IMG/VR virus record: IMGVR_UViG_3300021964_009396
Span: 1-30,068 of that record
Source of the DNA: a virus
Length of the DNA stretch: 30,068 bases
Direction: 5' to 3' (one strand)
Shown: positions 3,813-30,068 of the stretch, one piece after another
Layout of the letters: every line of letters begins with the position of its first letter
Numbering within the stretch: the first letter of the stretch is position 1
Made by a program: the position numbers and the translations under genes
The notes under the pieces: model-generated
Seen by the model: only the letters and a program-made list of their open reading frames with translations
Databases searched by the model: none
What the model was told of the DNA's origin: nothing

Positions 3813-4599
3813 ACTTTTTGTTTTAGGAGATTCATATGCTGCTCTACATGAAAACCACGTAGACAATACACTAATACCTGAGTCTACTCAATGGAGCTAT
3901 CTTCTTAGTCAAAAATTGAACATGGAGCTAGTTAATTATGGTGTAGGTGGTTCATCTGTAGAATACGCTATTAATAGATTTTATGAGAAAGTTTTACCTA
4001 ACATAAAAAAAGACGATGTGCTTATTTTTGTTAAGACTTTTTATCTGAGAAAATACTTAATAAAAGACAAACCTACATTCTCAATGCCTCCGATTGTAGA
4101 ATCACTTTATAACTCAGAAATAATTTCTTCCAAAGATTACGCTTTTTACATGAGATACTTTGCCGATATTGTGAGAACAGATGTTGAAGGATATCATTCT
4201 TTTAATTTTATAAATTCATTAGCATATTACGTTTATAAGTATGGTTTTAAGGTAGCGGTTGTCAATGCCTTCCCTACAACACCAGAAGAAAATAAGTTTG
4301 ATAATCCAAAAAACATTATAGTATCTAAAGGTTGTTTGTCTCATGTAACTAGATACGAATTTGTAGATTCTGAGATTTTTGATAAAAAAATTCCTGCAGA
4401 CATGATGGATCCTAGAAGAAACCACATGGATGTAAAGAATCATGCGATACTTGTAGATAAAATATATCATAGTATACAGAATGTAAATATTCCATTAGAC
4501 TTAGATATTGGTTTTGAGAAAAATTTATATACAGTAAAAGAACTATGTAAAAATGCACATAATAGAACCGAATGGAATAAAGCGAACCTAAAAAAATGA
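3805..4599 (+). CDS. SGNH/GDSL-type hydrolase-like protein
   Basis: A 264-residue protein. The N-terminus LFVLGDSYA carries the GDS motif with the nucleophile Ser at residue 10, followed by LVNYGVGGSSVEYAI (block II glycine, 46-51), DDVLIFVKTF as the block III region and, near the C-terminus, RRNHMDVKNHAILVDKIY with candidate catalytic His207 or His213 and Asp209. SGNH hydrolases remove or transfer acyl groups on sugars and lipids; in glycan clusters they often act as acetylesterases or acyltransferases. No signal peptide, so it probably acts in the cytoplasm. It sits directly before the first radical SAM gene with a 4-base overlap, supporting a shared pathway. Confidence 0.7.
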   Translation: MSKLFVLGDSYAALHENHVDNTLIPESTQWSYLLSQKLNMELVNYGVGGSSVEYAINRFYEKVLPNIKKDDVLIFVKTFYLRKYLIKDKPTFSMPPIVESLYNSEIISSKDYAFYMRYFADIVRTDVEGYHSFNFINSLAYYVYKYGFKVAVVNAFPTTPEENKFDNPKNIIVSKGCLSHVTRYEFVDSEIFDKKIPADMMDPRRNHMDVKNHAILVDKIYHSIQNVNIPLDLDIGFEKNLYTVKELCKNAHNRTEWNKANLKK

Positions 4600-8534: not shown

Positions 8535-8536
8535 CT

Positions 8537-9931
8537 ATGCCACATTCGTATGACCTATTAGATGTTAAAAACATTACCAACAAACTAAATGAAGTTGGTC
8601 CCGGTTTTTGTATGGCAAAGTGGTATCATGTTAGTATGCACTTACATACAGGACAAAACCATAGCTGCTATCATCCTGCACCTCACAAAATACCATTAGA
8701 AGAGGCACAGAAGAATCCTAACGTACTACATAACAGTCCTTTTAAGAAATCAGTAAGGAAAGAAATGTTAGCAGGCGGCCGCCCTTCAGAGTGTACTTAT
8801 TGTTGGGACGTAGAAGACTTAGGCCCTGATTACATATCGGATAGAATGTTAAGATCCTCTGAACAATGGTCAGTTCCTTTAATTGAAGAAACATCAAAAC
8901 TGACAGGTGATGAAGATGTATATCCAAGATATTTAGAACTTAATTTTAGTAATCGTTGTCAGTTTAAATGCAGTTATTGTGCGCCAATGGCAAGCTCGAC
9001 CTGGGTAAATGAAACCGATAAGTATGGTGACTGGCCTTTAGAAAATGAAATTAATGTTAGACAATATCAGAATATATCTTTTCAAAACGAAGGCACAAAG
9101 CACGGTGAAGAAGACTGTAATCCTTATATTAAAGTTTTTTGGGACTGGTTCCCCGAGGCTTATCCTCACGTACACACATTACGTTTTACAGGCGGTGAAC
9201 CCTTACTAAGCCCTAACGTGTTTAAGGTACTCGATTATGTTGCCGAACATCCTAGACCCGAGCTTAGGTTTGCTGTGAATAGTAATATGTCAGTACCTAA
9301 AAGAAATATTGAGAGGTTTCTTACTGTCACTAACGACTTGGTTAAAAATGGTAAGATATCTGGTTACGGCGTCTTTACAAGTGTAGATACTTGGGGACCT
9401 CAAGCAGAATGGATTCGCAACGGACTAGATATTGAAAAATATGAAAGTAATTTACACTACTATCTACAAAATTCAGCAACACCTTATATTAGCTTTATGG
9501 TAACTTTTTGTTTATTAGCTATCCCACGCTTTACTGACTTTTTGGATAAGGTTTTAGAATTTAGAAAAATTTATAACGTAGATCAATCATATCAACGTAT
9601 TAGTTTTGATACCCCATACACTGTCGAGCCACCTCACTTAACAGCACGTATTGCAGACGATTGGTTTGTTGAAAGACTAGAGTATACTTGTGATTATTTG
9701 TTAGAACGGGTGGATGATAACGATATAAATGCTTTTTCTACAGCAGAATATGAAAAGTTAAGACGTGTACTTGATTGGGTTAAACGTAGTAGGTATGAAG
9801 GCGAAGAACTTGCAATGAATCGTAGAGACTTTGCTGCTTTTGTAGATGAACATGATCGTAGAAGAGATACTGACTTTCACGCTGCCTTCCCAGAACTAAA
9901 AGACTTTTATACAATGTGTAAGGAATCCTAA
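8537..9931 (+). CDS. N-terminal twitch radical SAM enzyme A3
   Basis: A 464-residue paralogue of A1 and A2. ATG follows GAGG five bases earlier. Radical SAM motif CQFKCSYC (Cys141, 145, 148), FTGGEPLLS, auxiliary Cys at 25 (GFCMAKW), 44 (SCYHP) and 86/89 (ECTYCW). HKIPLEE and FKKSVRKEMLAGGRPSEC align with A1 and A2. The C-terminus DEHDRRRDTDFHAAFPELKDF carries the same terminal block as the others. The gene ends in TAATG with the next radical SAM gene. Presence of three closely related copies suggests either sequential reactions on similar groups or specialised partners. Confidence 0.88.
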   Translation: MPHSYDLLDVKNITNKLNEVGPGFCMAKWYHVSMHLHTGQNHSCYHPAPHKIPLEEAQKNPNVLHNSPFKKSVRKEMLAGGRPSECTYCWDVEDLGPDYISDRMLRSSEQWSVPLIEETSKLTGDEDVYPRYLELNFSNRCQFKCSYCAPMASSTWVNETDKYGDWPLENEINVRQYQNISFQNEGTKHGEEDCNPYIKVFWDWFPEAYPHVHTLRFTGGEPLLSPNVFKVLDYVAEHPRPELRFAVNSNMSVPKRNIERFLTVTNDLVKNGKISGYGVFTSVDTWGPQAEWIRNGLDIEKYESNLHYYLQNSATPYISFMVTFCLLAIPRFTDFLDKVLEFRKIYNVDQSYQRISFDTPYTVEPPHLTARIADDWFVERLEYTCDYLLERVDDNDINAFSTAEYEKLRRVLDWVKRSRYEGEELAMNRRDFAAFVDEHDRRRDTDFHAAFPELKDFYTMCKES

Positions 9932-11232
9932 TGAAAGATAAGTGGAATAAGACCCTTGAAAAATATTCTGATGAAGTGCAAGAGTCTTTTTGTATTCTTC
10001 CCTTTGTACATACATTTTTAAATACAGAGGGGGATGTTTTTCCTTGTTGTATATCTTGGGATGCTGAAAGAGGCAATTTAGTAGGCTATGTGAAAGATGA
10101 GTCTTTAGAAGATCTTTTTAACTCACCTAAAATGAAACAATTGAGATTGGATTTCATAAACGGCAAAAGAAGGCCAGACGTATGTGTTCGCTGTTACAAT
10201 TCAGAAGACAATGGGTTTCCAGCAGGAAGACATGGTAATAACCATGACCTGCAACATATGATTGAAGATGTAATATCAGCAACACAAGAGGATGGTTACT
10301 TAGACCCAAAACTAAAAAGCTGGGATATTCGTTTCAGTAATTTGTGTAATTTAAAATGTAGATCATGTGGTGACATATACAGCACGACTTGGGCAAAAGA
10401 AGATGCTGACTTTGGTATCAACAGGGGACAACAAGAGTTTAAGGCGTATGAAGGTGAAGACCCATTAAAGAACCAGTATGATAACGTAGAGAAAATTTAT
10501 TTTGCAGGCGGCGAACCTCTCATTATGCCCGAGCATTACAATACCCTTACTCAAATCATAAAAAAAGGACGAGCAAAAAAAGTTAGATTGGTATACAACA
10601 CTAACATGACTAAATTAAATTACAACAATAATTATTTGGTCGATTATTGGAAAGAATTTAAACAAGTAACACTTGGTTTAAGTATTGATAACTTTGGTGA
10701 TAGAGCAAACTACATTAGACACGGATCTGTAAAATGGCATAAGATAGAAAATAATATTAAACAGTTGGCAGAGTATTCTAAACAACCGAACTCTAATATG
10801 GATTACTTTTTCTCTCCTACCGTTAGTATTTTAAACGCATATACTCTGACAGATTTACACAGGCATTTTTATGAAGATGGTATGATGACAGGAATAGATG
10901 ATTTGTTGTTCAACATATTGTATCACCCAGCAGAACTATCATTCAATATTCTACCGGATTATCTAAAACAAGAAATACAAGACAAAATAAAACTTCACAT
11001 TGAGTGGATAAAAGATAATGGGGGAACTAGTAGATCTATAGATCAGTTTAATAGTTTTTCTGACTGTTTGAATGAAAAGATTGATGATCCGGAAAAAAAT
11101 ATAAAACAGTTTATACGAAGAACAAAAGAACTTGATGCTAGAAGAAATGAAAGTTTCCCTGACACCTTTCCTGAGTATGCAGAATGGTGGAACACAATAA
11201 CAAAAAATACAATAGACGTGGTTAACTTATGA
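9931..11232 (+). CDS. N-terminal SPASM/twitch radical SAM enzyme B1
   Basis: A 433-residue protein of a second subgroup. The N-terminus is strikingly like a SPASM domain: SFCILPFVHTFLNTEGDVFPCC (Cys21, 39, 40), a GNLVGYVKDESLEDLFNSPKM block and CVRC (85, 88). SPASM domains normally lie after the barrel, so the architecture is swapped. The radical SAM motif is CNLKCRSC (139, 143, 146) and the GGEP motif is in YFAGGEPLIMP. The C-terminal DARRNESFPDTFPEYAEWW block is shared with the A enzymes. It probably performs radical chemistry on a sugar, peptide or cofactor; known SPASM/twitch enzymes modify peptides (sactipeptides) or oxidise aminocyclitols (BtrN). Substrate not determinable here. Confidence 0.88.
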   Translation: MKDKWNKTLEKYSDEVQESFCILPFVHTFLNTEGDVFPCCISWDAERGNLVGYVKDESLEDLFNSPKMKQLRLDFINGKRRPDVCVRCYNSEDNGFPAGRHGNNHDLQHMIEDVISATQEDGYLDPKLKSWDIRFSNLCNLKCRSCGDIYSTTWAKEDADFGINRGQQEFKAYEGEDPLKNQYDNVEKIYFAGGEPLIMPEHYNTLTQIIKKGRAKKVRLVYNTNMTKLNYNNNYLVDYWKEFKQVTLGLSIDNFGDRANYIRHGSVKWHKIENNIKQLAEYSKQPNSNMDYFFSPTVSILNAYTLTDLHRHFYEDGMMTGIDDLLFNILYHPAELSFNILPDYLKQEIQDKIKLHIEWIKDNGGTSRSIDQFNSFSDCLNEKIDDPEKNIKQFIRRTKELDARRNESFPDTFPEYAEWWNTITKNTIDVVNL

Positions 11233-12518
11233 GCAAAGAATTACCTAAAACAATTTGTCCTCATCCGTGGCAACATTTACATTCATGGCCTGACGGGAAA
11301 GCTATGCTTTGTTGTGTAGCACATGGCGGAGTCAAAGGAGGAGAGGTCGGGGATTTCTCAAAGAACTCCTATGTTGAGATAATGAACAGCGATAAGATGA
11401 AACAAATTCGTAGTGATTTTTTAGCGGGTAAAAAACCACCTGAATGCAAGGCTTGTTGGGAAGCTGAAGATCTAGGCAAGCAAAGTTTTAGAAGTAATAC
11501 TCCTATACATAAAGAAGTCAGACAGTTAATGGAAGAAACTGACGCTGACGGTACTATGAAAGAAACTAAAATGTTTTATATGGATTATCGTTTTAGCAAT
11601 CTTTGCAATTTAGGATGTCAAACGTGTGGTAGTCCTCTGAGTAGCACTATTGCAAATAATAGAGAAAATAATTCATATGAGACTGATTTTTTAAAAAGAA
11701 AAAAGGTTCTGTCTGAAAGAGGTACAGTTACGTCTTTTGTTTATGCCAGACCAAACTTTATGGAAGAAGATGTTTATCCTTATTTAGATGACTGCCGAGG
11801 ATTTTATTTTGCTGGTGGCGAACCTTTAATGCACCAAGAACATTTGGATATTCTAAATTACTTGAATGATAATAAACTATACGATAAAACTATCTCATAC
11901 AGCACAAACCTATCATTATTGAAATGGAAAGGAATAAATTTTTTAGATATATGGAAGAACTTTAACAATATTATGTTTTGGTGTAGTATAGATGGTCACG
12001 GCAAACAGTTAGAGTATATCCGAGAGTTTTCAAAACATGACAGAGTATTTAAGAACTTAGATACATTGTTGAAATTAAAAGAGTCTCCCAATCCTGACAA
12101 ACCGTTTCAAGGTCATCAGGTTCGTATATGTTATACTCACAGTTTGTATAACTGTTATTATGTCCGAGAGTTTGTAGACTTCTTGTATGAAAATGGATTC
12201 TTAGATCGACTAAGTGACATTGAATTGAACTATGCTTATGGCGATAGTAATTGTCCTTCGTCATTACCTAACTTCGCAAAAGAAGAATTGAAGGCCAAAC
12301 GAAAAGAAGATCGTGAGGCAGAATCAATGCAATATATATTTAAGAAGTTTCCTAAATTTAAGCAATACTATGACACAGTAGACACCTTACTTGATAGCAA
12401 AAGTAACAATTACAGTTTTGATTTACTATGTTCTAATAAGTTTGTTGCTGACAAAGATAAGATAAAAGAAGCACTCCCTTGGCTTGCAAGTGTTATTGAA
12501 AGGCATAGAATTATATGA
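11229..12518 (+). CDS. N-terminal SPASM/twitch radical SAM enzyme B2
   Basis: A 429-residue protein. N-terminal auxiliary domain TICPHPWQHLHSWPDGKAMLCC (Cys10, 28, 29) with CKAC at 73/76; radical SAM motif CNLGCQTC (126, 130, 133); GGEP within YFAGGEPLMHQEH. The PHPW pattern and following SWPDGK closely match the dG-x-x-x-CC turn of SPASM domains. ATGA overlap with B1. The C-terminus lacks the RRN/FPE block in clear form but has EDREAESMQYIFKKFPKFKQYYDT in a related position followed by a longer tail, a difference from its neighbours. It is probably a distinct step in the same pathway. Confidence 0.86.
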   Translation: MSKELPKTICPHPWQHLHSWPDGKAMLCCVAHGGVKGGEVGDFSKNSYVEIMNSDKMKQIRSDFLAGKKPPECKACWEAEDLGKQSFRSNTPIHKEVRQLMEETDADGTMKETKMFYMDYRFSNLCNLGCQTCGSPLSSTIANNRENNSYETDFLKRKKVLSERGTVTSFVYARPNFMEEDVYPYLDDCRGFYFAGGEPLMHQEHLDILNYLNDNKLYDKTISYSTNLSLLKWKGINFLDIWKNFNNIMFWCSIDGHGKQLEYIREFSKHDRVFKNLDTLLKLKESPNPDKPFQGHQVRICYTHSLYNCYYVREFVDFLYENGFLDRLSDIELNYAYGDSNCPSSLPNFAKEELKAKRKEDREAESMQYIFKKFPKFKQYYDTVDTLLDSKSNNYSFDLLCSNKFVADKDKIKEALPWLASVIERHRII

Positions 12519-13714
12519 CAAATTGTATTAATGTATATAAAGGATTACGTTACACCAACAGCGGTGAAGTTATGTTTTGCTGTAAGAGTGAAAACTGGCT
12601 AGACGATAAAGACGGTAATCGCTGTAAAATAGATACTCACACATTTGATGAAGCCTTAAACGGAAAACAGGCTACAGAGATACGTGACGCTTTAGAGAAA
12701 GGAATCAAACACAAAAACTGCCAAAAGTGCTGGGATGAAGAGGCTTCTGGTATTGCAAGTAAGCGTATGCTTGATAATGATAGAGCTCAAAGATACTGGG
12801 GTCTGGATTATCTGCGGGATACAACTGTGCAGGCAGAAATTGTTGAACTTAATTTAGGAACAGTTTGTAATCTAAAGTGTAGAATCTGTGGTCCTTGGTC
12901 AAGTAGTAAATGGGTGAAAGAACACTATGCAGTTTTAGCCAAAGGTGAACCTTTTGACAAATACATGGAAAGAATATATCAGTGGCAGGGAAACTGGGAA
13001 GAAGATAGTCCTGCATGGGAGAACATAGAAAACAATTTGCCTAATTTGAAACAAATTGACTTTTATGGAGGAGAACCTTTCCTTGTTGACAAGAACTGGG
13101 AAATTCTACAAAAAAGTGTAGACGAAGGTTATGCAAAAGATCAAATACTTCACTTTAATACAAATGCTACAACATACAAAGAAGAACATATAGAGACACT
13201 TAAAAAATTCAAAAGTGTTCTTATTAGTCTGTCTATAGACGATATTGGAGAAAGATTCGAGTTTCAAAGACATCCGGCAAAATGGGATGTGGTATCTGAA
13301 AACTTACAAAAATTTATCGAACTTAATAAATCTAATCCTCAAATAGATCTTTTGGTTTGTGTTACAGTTAATAATTTAAATGTATATTATATGACTGAGA
13401 TTATGCACTACTTTGAAAAACAAAAAGTACAATACTATGCAAACTATTTGCACTTTCCAGCATACTATAATATAAGAAATATGAAACAGGAATTGAAGTC
13501 AAAGGTTGCAGATAAATATGCTAGGACTAGGACAGGTTTGACCACGTACTCGCTTGAAAATTTAAAAAGAATTACCACTTACATGGAAAATCATATAAGC
13601 ACACAGGGTCCTTGGGAAGAATTTTTGAATATAACAAAAGCCAAAGATGATTACAGAAAAGAATCTTTTGCTGACACTTTCCCTGAGTGGTCAAAAATTA
13701 TAGAGGAAAACTAA
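12515..13714 (+). CDS. N-terminal SPASM/twitch radical SAM enzyme B3
   Basis: A 399-residue protein. Auxiliary Cys at 4 (TNCINVYKG), 22/23 (VMFCC) and 69/72 (NCQKCW); radical SAM motif CNLKCRIC (118, 122, 125); GGEP in DFYGGEPFLVD. The C-terminus KDDYRKESFADTFPEWSK is the family's terminal block. ATGA overlap upstream, TAATG overlap downstream with an oxygenase-like gene. The N-terminus is shorter than in B1/B2, beginning almost directly at the first auxiliary Cys, so the annotated start at 12515 is well constrained by the overlap. Confidence 0.86.
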   Translation: MTNCINVYKGLRYTNSGEVMFCCKSENWLDDKDGNRCKIDTHTFDEALNGKQATEIRDALEKGIKHKNCQKCWDEEASGIASKRMLDNDRAQRYWGLDYLRDTTVQAEIVELNLGTVCNLKCRICGPWSSSKWVKEHYAVLAKGEPFDKYMERIYQWQGNWEEDSPAWENIENNLPNLKQIDFYGGEPFLVDKNWEILQKSVDEGYAKDQILHFNTNATTYKEEHIETLKKFKSVLISLSIDDIGERFEFQRHPAKWDVVSENLQKFIELNKSNPQIDLLVCVTVNNLNVYYMTEIMHYFEKQKVQYYANYLHFPAYYNIRNMKQELKSKVADKYARTRTGLTTYSLENLKRITTYMENHISTQGPWEEFLNITKAKDDYRKESFADTFPEWSKIIEEN

Positions 13715-14334
13715 TGAATATTTCACAGCCGTTTAAAGGAGTTCCTTTGTGGGAATTTAGCGGTTTAGATATTCCCGATATAGATCCTTACAGTTACAAG
13801 ACAGTTTCTGCACAGGAAAGTAAACCTGTAATGTCAGATGAAATGTACAAAAAGAGAACTGTAATTGAATATTCCGATTTGAAAGATTGTGAAAATTATG
13901 CTAAGGTTCAGACGCAGATCGAAAAAGTAATTACTGCCATACAAAAACAATCTACTGAAATGATTTATATTGAAGATGGTGATTATAAAACTTTACTGCT
14001 TATGATAAACGCATGGAATATGCGTCACTATAAAAATACTGAGTTTGTTATAGACAAAAAGGGATTCAACATGGGTTATCATTTAGATAACCGGAATATA
14101 AAGTGTAATTTATTTTTAAACTTAAAAGATAATATATCTTCTACTGAGTTTATGATATTGAATCGACCTCTTCCTTGGACACATGAATCATTTGTATGTG
14201 ACAAAAAAGAATGGAAAGGTCCTTCTCAAAAAGGCTCAGGATATTTTTATTTCAATGAAGATAGACTTTGGCACAAAATTGAAGTAGAAGATGATGAGAG
14301 ATTAATCGCAATGATGGGAGTGACGATGGAATGA
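13714..14334 (+). CDS. Double-stranded beta-helix protein, possible 2-oxoglutarate/Fe(II) oxygenase
   Basis: I choose ATG 13714, which overlaps the previous stop and has GAGG nine bases upstream; an upstream in-frame ATG at 13687 would intrude into the radical SAM gene. The 206-residue product shows a jelly-roll pattern: YHLDNRNIKCNLFLNLKDN with His123-x-Asp125, FYFNEDRLWHKIEVEDDERLIAM with His187 and Arg196. HxD...H...R spacing is the iron and 2-oxoglutarate binding signature. If active it would hydroxylate the product of the cluster. A cupin-type metal protein without oxygenase activity is the main alternative. Confidence 0.55.
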   Translation: MNISQPFKGVPLWEFSGLDIPDIDPYSYKTVSAQESKPVMSDEMYKKRTVIEYSDLKDCENYAKVQTQIEKVITAIQKQSTEMIYIEDGDYKTLLLMINAWNMRHYKNTEFVIDKKGFNMGYHLDNRNIKCNLFLNLKDNISSTEFMILNRPLPWTHESFVCDKKEWKGPSQKGSGYFYFNEDRLWHKIEVEDDERLIAMMGVTME

Positions 14335-14990
14335 ATATTGTTATTGTTGGACCGGGTAGCGACCCAAAAAGATTTGGTACCTATTTTGTAAATAAAGCCG
14401 AAGAACAAGAACACAATGTAATAAAGTTTTCTTATAGATTAAATACAGAGTCTCCGGAAGAAATAGGTGACAGATTTGAAAGCGTTATTGAACCGCTTGA
14501 ACAAATAGACTTATTGTTGTATAATTCTATAGGAGGATTTTATCCGGGAGAGCCTTCTAATTACACTTCAACCCACGATGTAAAATTTTCAGATTGGCAA
14601 ACAGGAATACTTATCAATGCTGCATTGCCTCATATGTTTTCTGTAAAGTGTCTGAAAAAGATGAATGATAGGTCGGGTATTGTGTTTTTAACATCTTCTG
14701 CATCATACTTAATTAACAGAGATAATTTTATACAAATGGCTGGTTACTTTGGTACTAAGGGTGCTATGAATCAGCTGATGAGGGCTCTTGCAGAATACAA
14801 TGATAAAAATGCTACAGTTTGTTGTATGGCACCACACATACCATACGATCAACCTGATATGGCAGAGAAAATTATGGATAAATTGACCAAATATATTTTG
14901 AGAATTCATAAAGACGATACTGGAAAAATTCTACAGTGTTATCCGCCAGACGGCAATGTATTTTATCACACAGGAGGAGTAAATCCGTGA
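14331..14990 (+). CDS. Short-chain dehydrogenase/reductase (SDR)-like oxidoreductase
   Basis: A 219-residue Rossmann protein starting with MNIVIVGPGSDPKRFGTYFV (glycine-rich dinucleotide loop 7-16), LLLYNSIGGFYPGE in the NNAG position, VFLTSSASYLI with Ser122/123, and YFGTKGAMNQL with Tyr139 and Lys143 as the catalytic YxxxK pair. It would oxidise or reduce a hydroxyl or keto group using NAD(P). ATGA overlap with the oxygenase-like gene. The glycine loop deviates from the classical TGxxxGxG, so cofactor binding is inferred. Another SDR lies at 24383. Confidence 0.72.
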   Translation: MNIVIVGPGSDPKRFGTYFVNKAEEQEHNVIKFSYRLNTESPEEIGDRFESVIEPLEQIDLLLYNSIGGFYPGEPSNYTSTHDVKFSDWQTGILINAALPHMFSVKCLKKMNDRSGIVFLTSSASYLINRDNFIQMAGYFGTKGAMNQLMRALAEYNDKNATVCCMAPHIPYDQPDMAEKIMDKLTKYILRIHKDDTGKILQCYPPDGNVFYHTGGVNP

Positions 14991-15103
14991 ATAAAGAAAA
15001 ACAAGAAGAAACAGAGATTGAAGAAGAGGAATTAGAACTTGATCCGGAGATATTAGAAAAATTAGAAAAGTTAAAAGAAGCAGACCCCTTCATCTATGAC
15101 TAA
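14987..15103 (+). CDS. 38-residue very acidic peptide before a radical SAM gene
   Basis: GTG start at 14987 seven bases after AGGAGG-like GGAGGAGT (14972-14979), the strongest Shine-Dalgarno in the cluster. The reading frame overlaps the SDR stop by four bases and the next radical SAM gene by eight. The peptide is Glu/Lys-rich with the C-terminal segment LDPEILEKLEKLKEADPFIYD, predicted helix then a hydrophobic DPFIYD end. It has no Cys. A tiny gene placed immediately before a SPASM-type radical SAM gene could be a substrate peptide, a leader-like binding protein or a small subunit. None of these is shown by sequence; existence of the gene is supported by its RBS and overlaps. Confidence 0.65.
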   Translation: MNKEKQEETEIEEEELELDPEILEKLEKLKEADPFIYD

Positions 15104-16193
15104 AGAAGCTGACACCTTTTGTATTTTGCCTTGGGTGTCAGCTGTCTACGCACCTAATAAAATGAACTTGATTTGTTGTCGTGCATTTGAAGAGGTGACA
15201 GAATATACTTTGGATGCTGTTAATTCAAAGTCACATAAACATTTAAGAGAAACATTGGGTAAAGGTATTCAAGATCCAATATGTAAAAGATGTTGGTTTG
15301 ATGAAAAAGCCGGTATATCTAGTTATAGACAAGACTTTAATAATGTTTTTAAAAACATCATAACAACTGATGCTTACGATCCTCCTAAGCTTAGATTTTT
15401 AGAATACACACCCAACAATGTATGTAATCTTGCCTGTAGAATGTGTAACTCTTTGTACTCAACAAGAATATATGCTAGGGAAAAACAGCTAAAAGAAAAA
15501 ATATGGAGTAAAGATGCTCATTATACTGACTGGAGAGATTTAGACCTAACACACTTACAAGAGCTAAAATTAATGGGCGGCGAACCCATGTATTTAAAAG
15601 AACATTTAGAAATGTTAAAGTATTTAGATGACATAGGTGTCCTAAAAGATTTATGTCTCACTTTGATAACAAACTGCACACATTCTATGTCAGATGAATG
15701 GAAACGAGTATTAAATAAAATTAGAAAGTTACATTTGGTATTAAGTGTAGATGCTGTCGGTCCAGTAAACGATTATATCCGCCAATATTCTAATTGGAAG
15801 GAAGTTGATAAGAATGTCAACGAATTTATTCAATACAAAAAAGACCTACCAGTGGGTAAGGTACATATAACCTTTAACTGCACTGTTGGGTTATACAATG
15901 TTAATAAAACCAAAGAACTTGAATTATATTCAAACGACAAAAAAATTGACTGTTACTTCAATCCGTTGAAGTTCCCGGAGTATCAGTCATTGTTCTACAT
16001 AAGCGAAGAACATAAAAAAGTATTAATAGAAAATAAAGGTGTGACCGAAAAATTACATCATGTTCTATTAGAGCCTGAAAAAAATGTAGTGTCTAAACAA
16101 AACTTTGTAGAAATGACCGACAAGACAGATAAGTTTTATAATAAATATTTAAAAGACTATAACCAAGAGATATACGAGTTGTTCTATGATTAG
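15096..16193 (+). CDS. N-terminal SPASM/twitch radical SAM enzyme B4
   Basis: A 365-residue, smallest member of the array. N-terminal auxiliary domain TFCILPWVSAVYAPNKMNLICC (Cys9, 27, 28) with CKRC at 63/66; radical SAM motif CNLACRMC (110, 114, 117); GGEP in LMGGEPMYLKEH. The C-terminal block shared by the other members is replaced by MTDKTDKFYNKYLKDYNQEIYELF. It overlaps the acidic peptide gene upstream and the carbamoyltransferase downstream. It is the last radical SAM enzyme of the 17 kb block and is likely functionally paired with one of these neighbours. Confidence 0.86.
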   Translation: MTKEADTFCILPWVSAVYAPNKMNLICCRAFEEVTEYTLDAVNSKSHKHLRETLGKGIQDPICKRCWFDEKAGISSYRQDFNNVFKNIITTDAYDPPKLRFLEYTPNNVCNLACRMCNSLYSTRIYAREKQLKEKIWSKDAHYTDWRDLDLTHLQELKLMGGEPMYLKEHLEMLKYLDDIGVLKDLCLTLITNCTHSMSDEWKRVLNKIRKLHLVLSVDAVGPVNDYIRQYSNWKEVDKNVNEFIQYKKDLPVGKVHITFNCTVGLYNVNKTKELELYSNDKKIDCYFNPLKFPEYQSLFYISEEHKKVLIENKGVTEKLHHVLLEPEKNVVSKQNFVEMTDKTDKFYNKYLKDYNQEIYELFYD

Positions 16194-17625
16194 TTGGGGT
16201 GTTAGTGCAGGGTTCCATGATGCAGCGTTGACAGTTATTAGAGACGGTTGCATCGTCTTTGCCTCACATTCGGAAAGATATAGTAAAATTAAAAACGATA
16301 AAAATCTTTCACCCGGATTAGTAAGAGCAGCTTTAGAGTATGGACAACCTGATATAATATTTTGGTATGAGAATCCTTTACTCAAAGCAACCCGTAGAAT
16401 ATGGGCAGGGCAAAAGAATTGGTATAAAAATCCAAAAAAATATTTTACAGATGTAGGATACGATTTCAAATGTCCTATTGAATGGGGCAACCATCACAAG
16501 TCACATTGGGCTGCTGGGTACTATACAAGACCTAGTCACTTTGTTGACTGCGCCACACTTGTTGTTGACGCAATAGGGGAATGGACAACCACCTCAATAT
16601 GGAAAAATGAAAAAAAAGTTTGGTCGTCACGTTACCCAAAATCTTTAGGACTTTTTTACAGTGCCTTTACTGATAGGTTAGGCCTCAAGCCAAACGAAGA
16701 TGAATACATCCTCATGGGCATGGCTGCGTATGGTGACCCTAATAGATTCTTTGACGAAATAGAAAAACTGACACACGGCAAAAATTTACATAAAGGTGTA
16801 CGTTGGTGGAGACCTGAACTTACAAGCGAACAAGATAAGTTTGACATAGCGGCTGCTGTACAAAAAGTATTTGAATCATACTTACATGGCTTACTAAACA
16901 AGACGAAAGAACTCACAGGGCAGTCTAAACTTGTTTATATGGGCGGGTGTGCCTTGAACTGTCTTGCTAATAGACTGATACCACAATACTTCAAAGAACA
17001 TTGGATAATGCCTAACCCAGGTGATGCAGGATCATCACTTGGTGCTGTGCTTGCTGGAACTAAAGAACGTGTGAACTTTAGTACAGCTTATTTAGGACAT
17101 GAGATAAAAGGTGAATATCCGGTTGACAACCTACTACAAGAACTGTTACAATATGGGATAGTGGGAGTAGCAAATGGGCGAGCAGAGTTTGGTCCAAGAG
17201 CATTGGGCAATCGTAGCTTGTTAGCCGATCCACGTGGTGAAGAAATGAAAGATGCTGTAAACAAGATAAAACAGCGACAGGAGTTTAGACCGTTTGCTCC
17301 TGTTATAAGACAACATGATGTTGCTGACTTTTTTGAGGTTAGTAAGACTTTTCATTCACCTTATATGCAACAGGTTGTAAAGTGTAAACATAAACACTTG
17401 TTTCCTGCAATCGTACACAAAGATGAAACAAGTAGGGTACAAACAGTGACATACGCATCAAATCCGGGCCTATATGTATTATTAACACGCTGGTATGAAG
17501 AAACTGGGTGCCCTATGTTACTGAATACAAGTTTGAACATAAAAGGGCAACCTATTGTAAATACGTTGAATGACGCAAAGAAGTTTGAAGAATATTATGG
17601 AGTAAAAGTCTATGGATCTGAATGA
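16186..17625 (+). CDS. Carbamoyltransferase, NodU/CmcH/TobZ family
   Basis: A 479-residue protein with both family domains. The N-terminal Kae1-like ASKHA part has ISWGVSAGFHDAALTVIRDG (2-21), metal-binding NHHKSHWAAGYY (His103, 104, 107), VVDAIGEWTTTSIW, GLFYSAFT, LMGMAAYGDP, YMGGCALNC and PNPGDAGSSLGA. The C-terminal domain has GRAEFGPRALGNRSLLADPR, FRPFAPVI and LNTSLNIKGQPI. These enzymes use carbamoyl phosphate and ATP to carbamoylate a hydroxyl on sugars, antibiotics or Nod factors. Length is slightly below the roughly 550-600 residues of cellular members. ATG overlaps the preceding stop. It implies the pathway product carries an O-carbamoyl group. Confidence 0.93.
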   Translation: MISWGVSAGFHDAALTVIRDGCIVFASHSERYSKIKNDKNLSPGLVRAALEYGQPDIIFWYENPLLKATRRIWAGQKNWYKNPKKYFTDVGYDFKCPIEWGNHHKSHWAAGYYTRPSHFVDCATLVVDAIGEWTTTSIWKNEKKVWSSRYPKSLGLFYSAFTDRLGLKPNEDEYILMGMAAYGDPNRFFDEIEKLTHGKNLHKGVRWWRPELTSEQDKFDIAAAVQKVFESYLHGLLNKTKELTGQSKLVYMGGCALNCLANRLIPQYFKEHWIMPNPGDAGSSLGAVLAGTKERVNFSTAYLGHEIKGEYPVDNLLQELLQYGIVGVANGRAEFGPRALGNRSLLADPRGEEMKDAVNKIKQRQEFRPFAPVIRQHDVADFFEVSKTFHSPYMQQVVKCKHKHLFPAIVHKDETSRVQTVTYASNPGLYVLLTRWYEETGCPMLLNTSLNIKGQPIVNTLNDAKKFEEYYGVKVYGSE

Positions 17626-21292: not shown

Positions 21293-21952
21293 ATGTTTAA
21301 AAGAATAGAAATAGATTTAAAAATACCTGAAGCAGAAACTACCGAACACGGTAGATTCTATCGTACACCTGAAGGAAACTTATATCCTTCAGTAACCACC
21401 GTTATGTCTCATGCGTCAAAAGAGTCTATCAAGGCTTGGCGTGAACGTGTCGGTGAAGAAGAAGCAAACAAAATCAGTAATCAGGCAGCAACAAGAGGTA
21501 CAAAGATACATGACTTGTGCGAAAACGTGTTGCTGAATAATGATATTGATACAAGCAATCTCAGTTTGTTGGACAAACAGATGTGGGATCGCTTCCGTCC
21601 TGAACTCGACAGGATAGACAACATTCACGCAATCGAAGACCCACTATACAGTAATCATTTACGTATGGCAGGCCGGGTTGATTGTATTGCTGAATGGGAT
21701 GGGAAATTATCAGTCATTGACTTTAAGACCTCACGCAAGCCTAAAAGAAAAGAATGGATTGATAATTACTTTATGCAATGTACTTCATACGCAATTATGT
21801 TTGAAGAAATGACCGGTATACCGGTACCGCAAATCGTTGTTGCTATTACTGTCGAAGGAGAACAACCTCAAGTCTTTGTTGAAAAACGAGATAATTACGC
21901 AGAGCAGCTATTGGACTTACGTTTAGATTATGAGCGCAATTTAAAATTATGA
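21293..21952 (+). CDS. PD-(D/E)XK exonuclease (RecB/MGME1-like)
   Basis: A 219-residue protein with the nuclease core: RGTKIHDLCENVLL (68-81, helix with the conserved H-x-x-x-E), AGRVDCIAEWDGKLSVIDFKTS with Asp130, Asp143 and Lys145 as the D...DxK catalytic set, then DNYFMQCTSYAIMF (the Q-x-x-x-Y helix). Such enzymes are common in marine T4-like phages near DNA-replication genes and probably process DNA ends during replication or recombination. Its stop overlaps the next ATG. Confidence 0.88.
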   Translation: MFKRIEIDLKIPEAETTEHGRFYRTPEGNLYPSVTTVMSHASKESIKAWRERVGEEEANKISNQAATRGTKIHDLCENVLLNNDIDTSNLSLLDKQMWDRFRPELDRIDNIHAIEDPLYSNHLRMAGRVDCIAEWDGKLSVIDFKTSRKPKRKEWIDNYFMQCTSYAIMFEEMTGIPVPQIVVAITVEGEQPQVFVEKRDNYAEQLLDLRLDYERNLKL

Positions 21953-23256
21953 ATATAAGCAATCTGCTGATAACAGCTGCTACAAATTATCCAGATCGCC
22001 CTGCAATATCATTTAATAATATAACCTATACTTGGAGCGAGGTATGTGAACGCACAAGAAAACTTGCAACCAAATTAAGTAATATCGGAGTAGTAAAAAA
22101 TGATAATGTAGCATTTACAGGACACAATTCTAACACACAAGTAGAACTCTTTTATGCTTGTTCTATGTTAGGTGCTACTTTTGTTCCTATAAGTTATCGT
22201 TATTCAAAGAAAGAAATTGATGAGGTACTAAGGGATTGTAATCCTAAAGTTTATTTAGATGAGTCTAGTGTCTCAATTACTGATGAAAAACTATACGAAA
22301 ATGTAGTAGACGGTAATGATTATTATGCTATTACATACACCGGAGGCACTTCAGGCAAACCAAAAGGTGTGCCTCTCAGTCATACTAGACAATATTTAAA
22401 TGCTCTTACAAGTGCAAGTGTCTTTAATTTATCAACTGATGATGTTAGTTTATTGTGTGGACCAATATATCATTTAGGTCCTCAGAATAGAATTTTTGCA
22501 TCTACCATGATGGCTTCTCATCTTGTCATACAAGACAAATTTGTACCAGCACAATTTGTAGAAATTGTGCAAAAATATAAGGTGACTAATATTACACTGG
22601 CACCCACAATGTTACAAATGTTGTTAGATGCGCCTGAGTTTGATTACGAAAAAATTAAGAGTATAAAAAACATACAGACCGCAGGATCAACTATGCCTAC
22701 TGCTCTGTTAAACAGAGCAAGAACAATCTTTGTTGACGCAGAATTTAATGATTCATATGGCATTACAGAAATGGGAGGAGTAGTTCTTGCAAATAATAAG
22801 CCTGTTCCTCATGTTGCTGTAAGAATTGTAGATGATGAACTGTGGGTGAATGGGCCTACACTTATGGATGCTTATGTCAATAGGACTCCTGATTTTAAGG
22901 ATGGTTGGTATCAGACTGGTGACATGGTAAAACTTGTTGACGAAAAATATTATATTGTCGGAAGAAAAGATGATATGTTTGTTTCTGGTGCAGTTAATAT
23001 TCATCCAAGTGAAATAGAAACCGTTATAGATTCACATCCGAAAGTAAAACAGTCTGCGGTGATAGGAGTAGATGATGAACTATGGGGGCAAGTGCCCCGG
23101 GCCTTTGTTGTAGGTGAGGTATCAGAAAATGATTTGATAAGTCATTGTAAGGATAATATGGCCAACTACAAGTGTCCGAAACAATTTGTATTTGTTGACG
23201 ATATACCGAAAACAGGTGCAGGAAAGGTTGACAAGCAGGCATTAAAACTGTTATAA
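21949..23256 (+). CDS. AMP-forming acyl-adenylate ligase (acyl-CoA synthetase-like)
   Basis: A 435-residue member of the ANL superfamily. Motifs in order: YTGGTSGKPKG (130-140, phosphate loop), GSTMP, DSYGITEMGG (motif A5), GWYQTGDMV, YYIVGRKDDMFVSGAVNIHPSEIE (hinge region), and C-terminal PKTGAGKVDKQAL with catalytic Lys426. It should activate a carboxylate as an acyl-AMP and pass it to CoA or another thiol or amine. At 435 residues it is shorter than typical acyl-CoA synthetases, mostly through a compact N-terminus. No carrier protein is next to it. ATGA overlap with the nuclease gene. Its last codons contain the tmRNA promoter. Confidence 0.9.
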   Translation: MNISNLLITAATNYPDRPAISFNNITYTWSEVCERTRKLATKLSNIGVVKNDNVAFTGHNSNTQVELFYACSMLGATFVPISYRYSKKEIDEVLRDCNPKVYLDESSVSITDEKLYENVVDGNDYYAITYTGGTSGKPKGVPLSHTRQYLNALTSASVFNLSTDDVSLLCGPIYHLGPQNRIFASTMMASHLVIQDKFVPAQFVEIVQKYKVTNITLAPTMLQMLLDAPEFDYEKIKSIKNIQTAGSTMPTALLNRARTIFVDAEFNDSYGITEMGGVVLANNKPVPHVAVRIVDDELWVNGPTLMDAYVNRTPDFKDGWYQTGDMVKLVDEKYYIVGRKDDMFVSGAVNIHPSEIETVIDSHPKVKQSAVIGVDDELWGQVPRAFVVGEVSENDLISHCKDNMANYKCPKQFVFVDDIPKTGAGKVDKQALKLL

Positions 23257-24386: not shown

Positions 24387-24979
24387 TTATTGCAATTACA
24401 GGCACCTCTAGCGGTGTTGGTAAAGAACTATATAATGTTTTGTCTAAAGAATATCAGGTTATTGGACTAACACGAAAAGATATAGATCTAGATTACCCTG
24501 ATAAAATTGATAAACTTGATCAAGTAGACATACTGATAAATTGTGCTGGACATGACTTAGGTGGTAAGGTAAAATTCACAGAACACAAGTTTGAATATTG
24601 GCACAAGATTATGAATACTAATCTTATTAGTGTTATGAGGCTAACTCAATTAGCATTACAAAATAATCCTAAAGTAAAGATAGTCAATGTTACTAGCACA
24701 AACAACGACCATTTTTATCCTGGGGATTTAGTATATAGCCTGTCTAAAAAAGCATTACAAGAATTTGGCAGAATGATTCAGATAGAATTTCCTGAGGCCA
24801 CTATTAAAGAAGTTAGATTGGGGCTTACTAAAACTAATTTTAATCAGAACAGACATAGGTTAAAACACAAACCTATAGATAATTTGTATGACATAGAACA
24901 TCTCAAACCAAAAGATGTTGCAAGACAAATAGCAGATTTTATTTTTGACCGAGATCTTTTTACTAGAATAGCCCCATGA
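24383..24979 (+). CDS. Short-chain dehydrogenase/reductase
   Basis: A 198-residue classical SDR: TGTSSGVG (6-13), INCAGHDLGG (52-61, the NAG motif), VNVTSTN with Ser105, and YSLSKKAL with Tyr118 and Lys122. The start is TTG at 24383, overlapping the gp33 stop; no ATG is available nearby. It is followed by a radical SAM enzyme with a 4-base overlap. NAD(P)-linked oxidation or reduction of an unknown substrate. It interrupts the gp33-gp59 replication/transcription module. Confidence 0.85.
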   Translation: MIIAITGTSSGVGKELYNVLSKEYQVIGLTRKDIDLDYPDKIDKLDQVDILINCAGHDLGGKVKFTEHKFEYWHKIMNTNLISVMRLTQLALQNNPKVKIVNVTSTNNDHFYPGDLVYSLSKKALQEFGRMIQIEFPEATIKEVRLGLTKTNFNQNRHRLKHKPIDNLYDIEHLKPKDVARQIADFIFDRDLFTRIAP

Positions 24980-26061
24980 AAAATGATTATGGGTGGCAGT
25001 TATATCACTGGCACATTGAAATCAGCGCAAAGTGTACACTAAAATGTCCACGATGTCCTCGTACTGAAATGCCCAAAACCTCTTGGACTAACAAAGAGTT
25101 TACCCTTGAGGAATTTCAACAGGCGTTTACTGAGGACTTTATCCAACAGAACGTCAAAAGATTTACTATGTGCGGTGACATAGGAGATCCTATCTACTGT
25201 AAAGACTTTTTGAAAATTTGTAGTTATATCAAACAAGTCAAACCTACTTGTCACATTTTTATCATCACCAATGGCAGCTACAAAAAAGCAGAATGGTGGG
25301 AAGAACTAGCTGTTATCCTAAATGAATATGATACTGTAAACTTCAGTGTTGATGGTTACAATCACGACACCAACAATATGTATAGAGTGAACAGTGATTG
25401 GGAAAGTATCATGCTCGGAATGTCTATCATGGGTCACAAATCTAAAGCGTTTGTTGTTTGGGCTACAATATACTTTAGTTTCAATGAAAATAATTTAGAT
25501 GAAATAGTAAAACTTGCTAGACAAAACAATTGTGATACTGTACAATGGACTAAGAGTACAAAGTTTGGGAGTAAGTATGAAACATATGGCCCTTACGATC
25601 ATTTAGAACCGAGTGAACAATACATAGCCAGCACACACCGGTATGAAAGAAGCGTCACAAGATTATCAGATCGTATTCAACCTATTGATGAATACATGGA
25701 AACAAACATAGAAAAATATAACACGACCCCTGCACACGGAAATATATTGCCTTTGTGTTTAGTAGGTAATCGAGGAATGTATTTAAGTGCCGACGGAACT
25801 TTACACCCATGCTCTTGGACAAGTTTTCCATACACTGAAATGAGTGACGGTAAAAAGAAAATTAGATATGAAGATAGCTTTTTTGCCATGTATCGAGATC
25901 AGCTATCAGTGAAAACAAATAGTATGGAAAATGTTTTGAACCATGAGCTTTGGAAGAAACTATTTTCTAGTTGGAAAAATAGTCCTTGGGTTGAGTGTAG
26001 TCTCAAATGTAAGAAGGACTATGTTGATTATAATTATGCTGTGGGATACGAAACAAACTAA
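24976..26061 (+). CDS. Radical SAM enzyme with C-terminal SPASM-like domain
   Basis: A 361-residue protein with the radical SAM motif CTLKCPRC at the N-terminus (Cys20, 24, 27) and Cys in a C-terminal auxiliary domain: LPLCLVGNRGMYLSADGTLHPCSWTSF and VECSLKC (Cys341, 345). This is the usual domain order, unlike the seven enzymes at 4596-16193, which carry the auxiliary domain first. Overlaps the SDR upstream (ATGA) and gp59 downstream (TAATG). SPASM enzymes often modify peptides. Pairing with the SDR suggests a two-step reaction. Confidence 0.87.
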   Translation: MKNDYGWQLYHWHIEISAKCTLKCPRCPRTEMPKTSWTNKEFTLEEFQQAFTEDFIQQNVKRFTMCGDIGDPIYCKDFLKICSYIKQVKPTCHIFIITNGSYKKAEWWEELAVILNEYDTVNFSVDGYNHDTNNMYRVNSDWESIMLGMSIMGHKSKAFVVWATIYFSFNENNLDEIVKLARQNNCDTVQWTKSTKFGSKYETYGPYDHLEPSEQYIASTHRYERSVTRLSDRIQPIDEYMETNIEKYNTTPAHGNILPLCLVGNRGMYLSADGTLHPCSWTSFPYTEMSDGKKKIRYEDSFFAMYRDQLSVKTNSMENVLNHELWKKLFSSWKNSPWVECSLKCKKDYVDYNYAVGYETN

Positions 26062-27771: not shown

Positions 27772-27797
27772 AAAAAGGGGGCCTAGCCCCCTTTTTT
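27772..27797. terminator. Bidirectional rho-independent terminator between gp32 and gp29
   Basis: AAAAAGGGGGC (27772-27782) pairs with GCCCCCTTTTT (27786-27796) around a 3-base loop. The T-run serves the plus strand and the A-run the minus strand. It separates the convergent replication and tail transcription units and overlaps the gp29 stop codon. Confidence 0.93.
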
Positions 27798-29601
27798 ATC
27801 CCATAAAGACTCTATCGTTATACCTACTCAAAGAACTACCTTGATTACGAACATTAGATGCAAAAACATTAGTAGGACTACTGTTACTGCTATTGTTATT
27901 ATTGTTTGTTACATATTGTATATTAGGCGCTGCTCCTCCTCCACTACTATCTGAGGCATCTATTGTGACATTATCTACTGCCATTGCTGTTGGTACAGTA
28001 GAAGTAGCAACAGTATCAGCTCCCATAGGAGTTAATCCTTCTATATTTGCCATGGCAGGAGTAGCAGCCTGTATTTCTGCTATTCTGTTTTCTAACATTC
28101 TTTGTTGAGGCACTGACAACTCACCTGTGTCTACTATTTCTTGTAACTGGGCCGCGTCGTTTACTTCTGACAATCTTTCTTGGTTGATAGTTTGTCCTGT
28201 TACTCTACCTCTTCGATTGGTAGTATCTTCTACAATACCATCTTCTCTTGCTTTATTGATTATAGCCTCTGGAGTATTTTCTGCTAGTTGTTCATCAGCA
28301 TTGAAATTATCCCAAGCTTTCTTCATTTCTGTTATGGTCAAGTCACCTATCGCTGCTAGCCTTTCCATACCACCGTCTGGATCATCTTCAGGTGCAACTC
28401 CGTATACTTCTTTGTAAATTTCTCTAGCTATGTCAGCTGCACCTAATGTTATTGCAGACAACGGACCAGCTACACCACTGCCAGCTGATAGTGCTGCACC
28501 CACTAAATCACCTTTTACTGCTCGAAAAAGCCCTTGCCCTAAACCTATTAAAGCTCCGGCAAAAGGTATTGATTTTCCTATTATTCCTGGCATTGCCTTT
28601 GTTATTTTACTAGTAATTAGCTTACTTATTGTTTTAGCAGCTGTAGTATCTCCAGCTTCTAAAATTGCAACACCTGCTCTTGTTGGCATAGTATTTAAAG
28701 CTGCTGTTCCTGCTTTAGACATTAGGTTTCCTGCGGCACGGGCTCCACCTCTACCAGCTGCCTCTAAGCCTTCTCTTCCTATCGTTGCTCTAGCTAGGCT
28801 TGTGCCAGCTCTGACTGCTAGTGTTTCATCAACGCCCGTGTTATCTAAAACATTTTCTTCTAACTGTACTGATGTTCCATCGGGGGTTGTTACAGTAGTC
28901 CCACCTTCAGTAGTTTGATCTACTTGTAAAGGATCTCCAATTGTATTGAATTGGCCATCGTCTCTTTCTCCTCCACCGCCCGGTAAAAAATTTGAAAGAA
29001 ATTTTAACCCCATTAGTGTAGTTGCAACATTGCCTAGTGTTTCAAGCAAACCTCCACCTGAACCCATGCTTTCAGTATTTTCAGATATTTGTTTGAGCAG
29101 TTTGTTGTTTTCTTCTAGTATGTTGACTGTGGGGTCTTCAGTATCTAATCCTTTTCCTAATGTAGACTCAATTTGACTTCTTTCTCTAAGGCCCTTTAAT
29201 CCGGAACTCTTTTTACTTAATACTCCTCTAGTAAAAGCACTAGCTCTACTTCCAACCATACTTTGTTTTATTTCATCAAAGCCTAGAGCAAGGCGACTAT
29301 CAGCGTTTTTAATTTTTTCCATTTGATCTGCAATTTCTTTTAACGCAGATATTTGTTTCTCTCCAGTCTTATTCATGTTTTCTGTAAACATACTGGTCAA
29401 TTTTTTAAATTCTATTCTAGTCTCATCACTTGAAGCATCTAATATTTTTTGTAGACTTTCTGAATTGTTGCTAAGGTTAGAAGAAAACGCAGCTGCACCT
29501 CTACTGATTGCAGTAGAGCCTGTTCCCTTGGAAAGCCCAGACATAGGGGATGTTTTTCTTACTAAGTTAGCAAGGACTGACGAGTTTTTGTTAGTTTCCA
29601 T
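27796..29601 (-). CDS. 29: Tape measure protein, gp29-like
   Basis: A 601-residue protein, near the T4 gp29 length (590). The N-terminal third is helical (LQKILDASSDETRIEFKKLT, EKQISALKEIADQMEKI), followed by a Gly-rich linker, a hydrophobic segment IIGKSIPFAGALIGLGQGLF (about 340-360) with LVGAALSAGSG, and a low-complexity C-terminus with NIQYVTNNNNNSSNSS, like the Asn-rich end of gp29. It begins directly at the stop of the gp51-like frame (TAAATG). Placement right after the frameshifted tail-assembly chaperone pair is the hallmark of tape measure genes. It sets tail length during assembly. Sequence similarity to gp29 is limited; the call relies on length, composition and position. Confidence 0.7.
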   Translation of the reverse strand: METNKNSSVLANLVRKTSPMSGLSKGTGSTAISRGAAAFSSNLSNNSESLQKILDASSDETRIEFKKLTSMFTENMNKTGEKQISALKEIADQMEKIKNADSRLALGFDEIKQSMVGSRASAFTRGVLSKKSSGLKGLRERSQIESTLGKGLDTEDPTVNILEENNKLLKQISENTESMGSGGGLLETLGNVATTLMGLKFLSNFLPGGGGERDDGQFNTIGDPLQVDQTTEGGTTVTTPDGTSVQLEENVLDNTGVDETLAVRAGTSLARATIGREGLEAAGRGGARAAGNLMSKAGTAALNTMPTRAGVAILEAGDTTAAKTISKLITSKITKAMPGIIGKSIPFAGALIGLGQGLFRAVKGDLVGAALSAGSGVAGPLSAITLGAADIAREIYKEVYGVAPEDDPDGGMERLAAIGDLTITEMKKAWDNFNADEQLAENTPEAIINKAREDGIVEDTTNRRGRVTGQTINQERLSEVNDAAQLQEIVDTGELSVPQQRMLENRIAEIQAATPAMANIEGLTPMGADTVATSTVPTAMAVDNVTIDASDSSGGGAAPNIQYVTNNNNNSSNSSPTNVFASNVRNQGSSLSRYNDRVFMG

Positions 29602-29784
29602 TTACCGTTGCTCTTTTTGTTTGTCCGCTTTCTTTTTCAAGTGTTGTACTAGCATTGCTATATACACTTCTCTTTCCCAGGGCATCATTTCTTCTATTTC
29701 TGTTAAACTCCAATGATGTTCTTGTAGTAGTAAAAAATTCGTCTTATAATAATTCTCTAACGAATCCTGGGAAAGAGTTAAACG
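29602..29784 (-). CDS. 51: gp51-like tail-assembly frame, reached by -1 frameshift from gp26
   Basis: The frame has no ATG, GTG or TTG before the Met-Met in the middle, so it is probably made by frameshifting. After T-TTT-TTC (29790-29784) in gp26, a -1 slip gives 60 residues: RLTLSQDSLENYYKTNFLLL, then QEHHWSLTEIEEMMPWEREV, then YIAMLVQHLKKKADKQKEQR. The core WSLTEIEEMMPWEREVYIAML is a pattern I associate with gp51-like baseplate hub proteins of marine T4-like phages. An internal restart at MM would give only a short peptide. Confidence 0.7.
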   Translation of the reverse strand, partial: RLTLSQDSLENYYKTNFLLLQEHHWSLTEIEEMMPWEREVYIAMLVQHLKKKADKQKEQR

Positions 29785-30068
29785 AAAAAATGCTCGTACC
29801 CATTAATTCCTACAACATTATTGGTATTACATTCATTACAAGTATATTCTACCTTATGCCCCAATGCAGGTATGTTCTCAAAAAAGCTTCCTATTTTTTC
29901 TGTTATGTTCATAGGAAGTTCATCTAACCAGTCTATCAATTCTTGTTTTGTAATATCCTCAGGTCTAGTTACTTCTTCTGAATCGTATATGTAATCAATG
30001 CAACCATATACCACTTCTTCATCTTCTATATTGCCGCTATTTGCTTGTACTGTTGCACTCGGGTATTT
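29778..30068 (-). CDS. 26: gp26-like baseplate hub / tail-assembly protein, partial (N-terminus beyond window end)
   Basis: The minus-strand frame is open from base 30068 to the TAA at 29778, giving 96 residues of the C-terminus. The visible sequence includes YGCIDYIYDSEEV, EDITKQELIDWLDELPMNITEKIGSFFENIPALGH and a two-Cys turn CNECNTNNVVGINGYEHFFV. The last block (P-x-L-x-H then polar loop then G-x-x-x-FF) is the pattern at the C-terminus of T4-family baseplate proteins related to gp26. A GTG at 30014 is an internal Val, not the true start. It overlaps the frameshifted gp51-like sequence. Confidence 0.8.
   Translation of the reverse strand, partial: KYPSATVQANSGNIEDEEVVYGCIDYIYDSEEVTRPEDITKQELIDWLDELPMNITEKIGSFFENIPALGHKVEYTCNECNTNNVVGINGYEHFFV
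29784..29790 (-). promoter_or_regulatory. -1 ribosomal frameshift slippery heptamer T TTT TTC
   Basis: Read on the minus strand in the gp26 frame as CAT TTT TTC GTT TAA. Both tRNAs can re-pair one base upstream as TTT TTT, the classical X XXY YYZ form. The zero-frame stop follows one codon later, and the -1 frame continues into the gp51-like sequence. Confidence 0.75.

Follow-up and report, generated by a model that had tools for sequence, protein, structure and literature searches.

The DNA analysed here, hereafter the window, comprises positions 1-30,068 (30,068 nucleotides) of the virus record IMGVR_UViG_3300021964_009396, and its gp26 locus lies on the minus strand. The features of this locus are as follows:

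29778..30068, minus strand: gp26, the putative short chaperone (TAC-N); PF12322 E 1e-20, PHROG 150 E 8e-20
29784..29790, minus strand: slippery heptamer T_TTT_TTC, phased with gp26; from direct reading and conservation in relatives
29778..29780, minus strand: gp26 zero-frame stop TAA, one codon past the heptamer (T_TTT_TTC, GTT, TAA)
29602..29787, minus strand: -1 frame extension (gp51-like, putative TAC-C), 61 codons and a TAA (29604-29602); PHROG 634 E 1.5e-26
29734..29768, minus strand: predicted stem-loop with a 10-bp stem and a 15-nt loop; pairing starts at the 16th base past the heptamer
27796..29601, minus strand: 601-aa ORF, probable tape measure; from position, size and fast, length-variable evolution

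Within the window gp26 is represented by its 3' 96 codons and stop, the 5' end lying beyond the window end. The complete protein of 230 aa was obtained from an overlapping contig (L002) that is 99.97% identical to the window over 2,964 bp, and this full-length copy matches PF12322 with an E-value of 2e-50. The original prediction, made from the sequence of the window, placed a slippery heptamer one codon ahead of the gp26 stop, and this is the arrangement found, with T_TTT_TTC at 29790-29784 and TAA at 29780-29778. The nearest -1 frame stop upstream lies five codons 5' of the second slippery codon, and from there the frame stays open through to its TAA. It was also predicted to lack a start codon across its first half; the earliest ATG (29688-29686) is indeed codon 34 of the 61, and GTG and TTG are likewise absent from the 33 codons before it. 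The further proposal that this frame encodes a conserved gp51-type domain is upheld by the match to PHROG 634, a family named 'baseplate hub assembly catalyst', by alignment to T4 gp51 and by purifying selection (both below).

The 601-aa ORF begins at 29601, abutting the -1 frame stop. The tape measure had been predicted to follow the -1 frame immediately; an ORF does adjoin at this point, while its label rests on position, size and fast evolution and not on homology, as BLASTP matched it neither to T4 gp29 nor to three proteins in the tape measure position, one of them annotated as such. This ORF diverges quickly among relatives and differs in length, as tape measures do. A tail tube is annotated just upstream of gp26 in ValKK3, phiM12, P10VF, RHph_Y68, RHph_I1_18 and K571; the window ends inside gp26.

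Two other features of the window were recorded. Eight proteins encoded on the plus strand match Pfam Radical_SAM, seven of them within 4596-16193 and one at 24976-26061; four of the seven fall below the family cut-off, one of these four having a SPASM match above its own. Beside these genes lie a carbamoyltransferase (16186-17625) and an AMP-binding ligase (21949-23256), and the group may represent a modification or biosynthesis cluster, which would be unusual for a phage. On the minus strand, a 322-aa ORF at positions 192-1160 begins much like a signal peptide and contains a long low-complexity repeat rich in Asn and Thr.

Conservation of the heptamer and of the -1 frame

Related loci were gathered as the 80 nearest to the -1 frame of the window (set A, best 80 of 476 relatives), of S-PM2 (set B, best 80 of 596) and of Cr30 (set C, best 80 of 168), together with the two loci nearest ValKK3 (set V) and eight named phages, giving 250 loci. 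In sets A to C, 192 of the 240 loci are distinct over 300 bases (49, 79 and 64 respectively), and counts over loci, here and below, take no account of relatedness. An in-phase T_TTT_TTN is present at this site in 250 of the 250 loci (best 80 each of 476, 596 and 168, plus set V and the named phages). Its last base is C throughout set A (80 loci, best 80 of 476), C in 79 and A in 1 of set B (best 80 of 596), T in 55, C in 23 and A in 2 of set C (best 80 of 168), C in both loci of set V, and C in four, T in three and G in one of the named phages. Elsewhere in gp26 the same in-phase pattern occurs at just 29 of 45,263 codon positions. A scripted scan of five further named phages found the heptamer in four; in RHph_I1_18 a T_TTT_TTA lies beyond the scanned stretch and was read by eye from the printed context.

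The codons around the slip are similarly constrained. The codon preceding the first Phe codon varies in meaning and yet ends in T in 192 of the 192 distinct loci of sets A to C (best 80 each), for which log10 P under gp26 codon usage is -8.5, -13.5 and -13.4 with relatedness ignored. The first Phe codon of the slip is TTT in all 192 distinct loci (best 80 each of 476, 596 and 168). The second is TTC in all 49 distinct loci of set A (best 80 of 476), although elsewhere in gp26 80% of the Phe codons are TTT; this fixation would be expected if the -1 frame needs the CGN arginine that follows. The spacing from heptamer to gp26 stop is also identical in these 49 (best 80 of 476). Conservation of the slippery site had been put forward as a check on the prediction, and none of the 80 closest relatives (best 80 of 476) has lost it. 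Given this, the invariant T-ending codon and the low background within gp26, the heptamer is not there by chance.

A run of T residues might also change the frame through slippage of RNA polymerase. A homopolymer run is present in all loci and reaches 7-8 T in 39 of the 64 distinct loci of set C (best 80 of 168), but it is exactly 6 T in 49/49 distinct loci of set A and 79/79 of set B (best 80 each), which is short for transcriptional slippage. With a fixed codon phase and selection for a downstream stem as further evidence, we regard polymerase slippage as scarcely credible.

Evidence that the -1 frame is translated from its beginning comes from its pattern of substitution. Among the 49 distinct loci of set A (best 80 of 476) pN/pS is 0.12 in -1 frame codons 4-19 and 0.16 in codons 21-49, and exceeds 1 in the other two frames (in which 7 and 45 sequences are open). 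Purifying selection acts on this frame from the shift site onward. In the same set 43 of the 49 distinct loci (best 80 of 476) have no ATG, GTG or TTG before residue 9 of the -1 frame; the corresponding figures are 48/79 in set B (best 80 of 596) and 25/64 in set C (best 80 of 168). The absence of starts that had been expected of relatives therefore largely holds for the clade of the window, but not generally for set C. Neither of the two outcomes named beforehand as fatal to the prediction, independently started gp51-like frames and loss of the heptamer, turned up in the clade of the window. Because the early -1 codons are under selection and early starts are mostly absent, a change of frame is the simplest reading of the sequence data in the window clade. 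The signal, its conservation and the selection on the -1 frame are established by these observations.

It could be argued instead that gp51 is a separate short protein with its own start, translationally coupled to the gp26 stop. An ATG overlaps or adjoins this stop in ValKK3, Cr30, P10VF, phiM12, RHph_Y68, K571 and parts of sets B and C, and the records of these six phages give gp51 as a gene of its own that starts at or close to the gp26 stop. In the window such a start is excluded for the first 33 codons, which are conserved, and in the 43 loci of set A (of 49 distinct, best 80 of 476) for the stretch before residue 9; it also leaves the fixed heptamer, the stem and the gp26-like fusion in T4 gp51 without explanation. 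The positions of -1 frame starts differ among relatives and are not conserved, and some records leave the domain unannotated altogether. In Aeromonas phage P19 (L265, 1510-1678), for example, an unannotated gp51 domain occupies the -1 frame, T_TTT_TTC is present, and the earliest start in that frame is 30 codons past the gp26 stop. We therefore consider a wholly separate gp51 very improbable; in parts of sets B and C it is possible that a coupled gp51 start near the gp26 stop exists beside the frameshift. In practical terms, public records, including a 2025-era accession, mis-start or omit the extension. A 2010 comparison (PMC3037559) reported gp51 as missing from Aeromonas phage Aeh1.

The predicted downstream stem-loop

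The RNA of extension codons 2-18 (counted from 0) was folded and compared with shuffles that keep the protein and the codon usage of each locus, extension codons 20-31 serving as the control stretch; in these counts L002 represents the window, their extensions being identical. The fold was more stable than the shuffles (p<0.05) in 18/49 distinct loci of set A (control 0/49; best 80 of 476), 57/79 of set B (control 3/79; best 80 of 596) and 31/64 of set C (control 2/64; best 80 of 168). When loci were grouped into clusters at 75% identity, the median p was below 0.05 in 1/4, 13/22 and 16/28 clusters of sets A, B and C respectively (best 80 each) and in none of the controls. Set C contains 46 loci (of 64; best 80 of 168) that are unlike any set B locus over the folded stretch, and the stem was found in 18 of these 46, with 2 in the control. 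The significant stems of set B mostly begin 2-7 nt past the heptamer (best 80 of 596). In bacterial -1 sites the stimulatory stem usually lies nearer to the heptamer than it does in the window. The window's own stem has a p of 0.067 against synonymous shuffles and so falls short of significance alone. These results suggest that a 3' stem-loop in many relatives exceeds what coding would explain, and the stem of the window is supported as a member of this class.

The signal is visible only when each sequence is compared with its own synonymous shuffles. A gap-free RNAalifold consensus gave 0 kcal/mol in all three sets (A to C) and a scan of the same sets for a stem in fixed register found no dominant helix; these tests fail because the stem registers differ between clusters. 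Within the window clade, pairs in a 12-pair helix were counted on 39 sequences (37 distinct rows) chosen by hand among the 49 distinct loci. In this helix 78.4% of cells are paired, the highest value among all slides and one reached by 0/500 shuffles, and 15 cells have changed on both sides. A count of 3 pairs changed on both sides was reached by 232/500 shuffles, and one of 7 further pair types by 495/500. Covariation support for the window-clade helix is therefore mixed.

Two other candidate elements were rejected. The dnaX frameshift has a Shine-Dalgarno-like stimulator upstream of its slippery site, and a GGAGGG in S-PM2, Cr30 and S-H34 prompted a search for the same here. The longest Shine-Dalgarno match in the 21 nt considered was hardly better than in synonymous shuffles (3.20 against 3.13 in set A, 3.99 against 3.93 in set B and 4.28 against 4.02 in set C). 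Pairing of a conserved CTCTTT with an AAAGAG near the end of gp51 was dropped, being available in just 14/49 loci of set A (best 80 of 476). As a separate observation, the leucine at extension codon 5 (L002-L081) is CTT in 48 of the 49 distinct loci, as against 28 of 330 leucine codons further down, and in sets B and C CTC is the commonest codon at this position. The stem-loop accounts only partly for this fixed CTT/CTC leucine.

The chaperone reading and T4 as a natural control

The locus is, with high probability, a tail assembly chaperone pair of the lambda G/GT type in a marine T4-like myovirus, in which the short and long forms would be produced by -1 frameshifting. Most ribosomes would end at the gp26 stop to give the 230-aa gp26 (TAC-N), and a minority would slip one base back on T_TTT_TTC, bypass this stop and add the 61-residue gp51-like domain to give gp26-51 (TAC-NC). 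If the analogy with lambda G/GT holds, the tape measure protein would be coated by many short and a few long copies, with the gp51-like extension recruiting tail-tube subunits. We infer that the shift occurs, and likewise its rate, partners and function. A signal predicted to give two product sizes is seen in all of the tandem gp26/gp51 relatives examined.

Of 998 PDB chains aligned to a structural model of gp26 (mean pLDDT 91.2, built from 66 sequences), 2ob9, the tail assembly chaperone of HK97, scored best, with a Z of 7.7 that falls under the tool's caution level of 8; the next-best score is 2.6. The match covers model residues 1-85 (83 residues aligned, rmsd 3.9, 7% identity). Foldseek alone placed 2ob9 16th with an E-value of 1.8, and the gp26 profile gave no match below E 0.1 among PDB sequences. 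The model is thus in moderate agreement with a chaperone-like fold.

The names of T4 gp26 and gp51 refer to hub assembly, and some work places gp26 in the hub itself (cited in PMC3004832), so the frameshift could be real and its products be parts or catalysts of the baseplate hub rather than chaperones of the tape measure. The HK97 match of gp26 stands against this, as does the position of the short/long pair ahead of a long, fast-evolving ORF. The same review moreover lists both proteins as hub assembly chaperones, with gp51 essential and absent from the final particle. We judge a hub role in place of a chaperone role to be unlikely, and retain the chaperone pair as the preferred reading; the original proposal that gp26 and gp26-51 are tail assembly chaperones gains support from the HK97 match and from the fused gp51 gene of T4.

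In T4 itself (NC_000866) gene 26 and gene 51 lie on opposite strands. Residues 7-203 of T4 gp51 align to T4 gp26 (probability 98.5, E 1.8e-15) and residues 12-202 to the frameshifting gp26 family (probability 98.3, E 1.2e-14), while residues 200-249 align to the -1 extension (hhalign probability 95.9, E 5.8e-9). Pfam likewise places both T4 gp26 and T4 gp51 (1-201) in PF12322. By these alignments T4 gp51, a paralogous fused gene, is the in-frame equivalent of the predicted gp26-51 fusion, joined at the same junction. The T4 gp26 ends in EFF encoded by GAG TTC TTT, which is not slippery, and the four T4-like contigs found with an EFF end have GAG or GAA TTC TTT. A separate full-length gp51 gene is intact in 11 of the 12 other T4-type records examined; in one T4-type record (L100, 2001 onward) the gp51 frame ends after 120 codons through mutation or sequencing error. 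The stem control used 11 of 13 T4-type gp51 genes, that of L100 being left out for its early stop and that of GAP161 because the junction pattern was not found, and the stem was present in 0/11. No T_TTT_TTN was found at the junction of these 11 genes, three of which carry TTTAAAN in some frame.

Since ValKK3 and Aeromonas phage P19, also Straboviridae, keep the heptamer, its loss on the branch of T4 looks derived. T4 appears to follow the short/long rule through separate genes, with no frameshift at this point. The original proposal had brought the T4 hub genes under the frameshift rule for long tails; what stands of this is the pair of short and long chaperones, and what does not is the frameshift in T4, where gp51 is a gene of its own. 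On balance we favour a reading in which, outside the relatives of T4, the T4 superfamily frameshifts by the conserved T_TTT_TTN and a downstream stem that is kept while its pairs and register drift, and in which on the branch of T4 gp26 was duplicated, one copy was fused to the extension, and heptamer and stem were lost together. If true, this would explain the short marine gp51 noted in 2010 and the role of the essential gp51 of T4. T4 and its marine cousins would then form a natural experiment, in that neither slippery site nor stem occurs where a separate gene encodes the long form.

Comparison with known systems

Several parts of this picture have precedents. The lambda gpG/gpGT chaperone frameshift (Xu, Hendrix and Duda 2004, as described in PMC5009743) is said to be conserved in long-tailed phages except T4 (PMC5009743). 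Chaperone genes of T4-like phages were identified in print by Vladimirov et al. 2022 (via PMC10885494 and PMC12846349), who are cited for the presence in some T4-like phages of a short gene beside a long fusion gene (PMC10885494) and for frameshift signals of the poly-T kind in the TAC-N genes of such phages (PMC12846349). Cyanophage gp51 has been described as about 20% of the usual length, marine copies being without the first ~200 residues (PMC3037559). A literature search, with most subscription papers outside it, found nothing closer on a cyanophage frameshift, the hub catalyst or a stem-loop; the parts most likely to be new are the stem-loop and the joint absence of heptamer and stem in T4.

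The likeness to lambda G/GT lies in a short protein paired with a long form extended in the -1 frame where the short gene ends, a slippery heptamer, a location before the ORF at the tape measure position, and an extension without its own start (in the window clade, not generally in set C). The window gp26 differs in being longer, with an extra beta-rich, cysteine-containing region past its chaperone-like first 85 residues, and its heptamer is T_TTT_TTC. The HK97 chaperone 2ob9 similarly covers only the N-terminal part of gp26. With T4 gp26 and gp51 the locus shares membership of PF12322 and the match between the gp51 C-terminus and the -1 extension, but in T4 the two genes lie on opposite strands, slippery site and stem are absent and the long form is in frame, whereas the window has one locus with overlapping frames. 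According to the Adele paper (PMC12846349), the TAC-N genes of Vandenendeviridae and Andersonviridae likewise carry at their 3' ends a conserved slippery motif of poly-T, and the -1 frame is open, although these form another phage group and the motif is given there as GTTTTT.

The closest counterparts are the gp26/short gp51 loci of S-PM2, ValKK3, Cr30, phiM12 and P10VF, which share gene order, the phase of T_TTT_TTN and the extension domain with the window. Several of these cyanophage, vibriophage and rhizobiophage loci differ in having an ATG near the gp26 stop, and the cyanophage-type loci as a set have a stem-loop stronger and closer to the heptamer than that of the window. This reading would account for the old puzzle of why cyanophage and vibriophage gp51 lacks the first ~200 residues of its T4 namesake, and would bring abundant marine T4-like phages under the lambda rule, in which a tail of set length is built with one short and one long chaperone.
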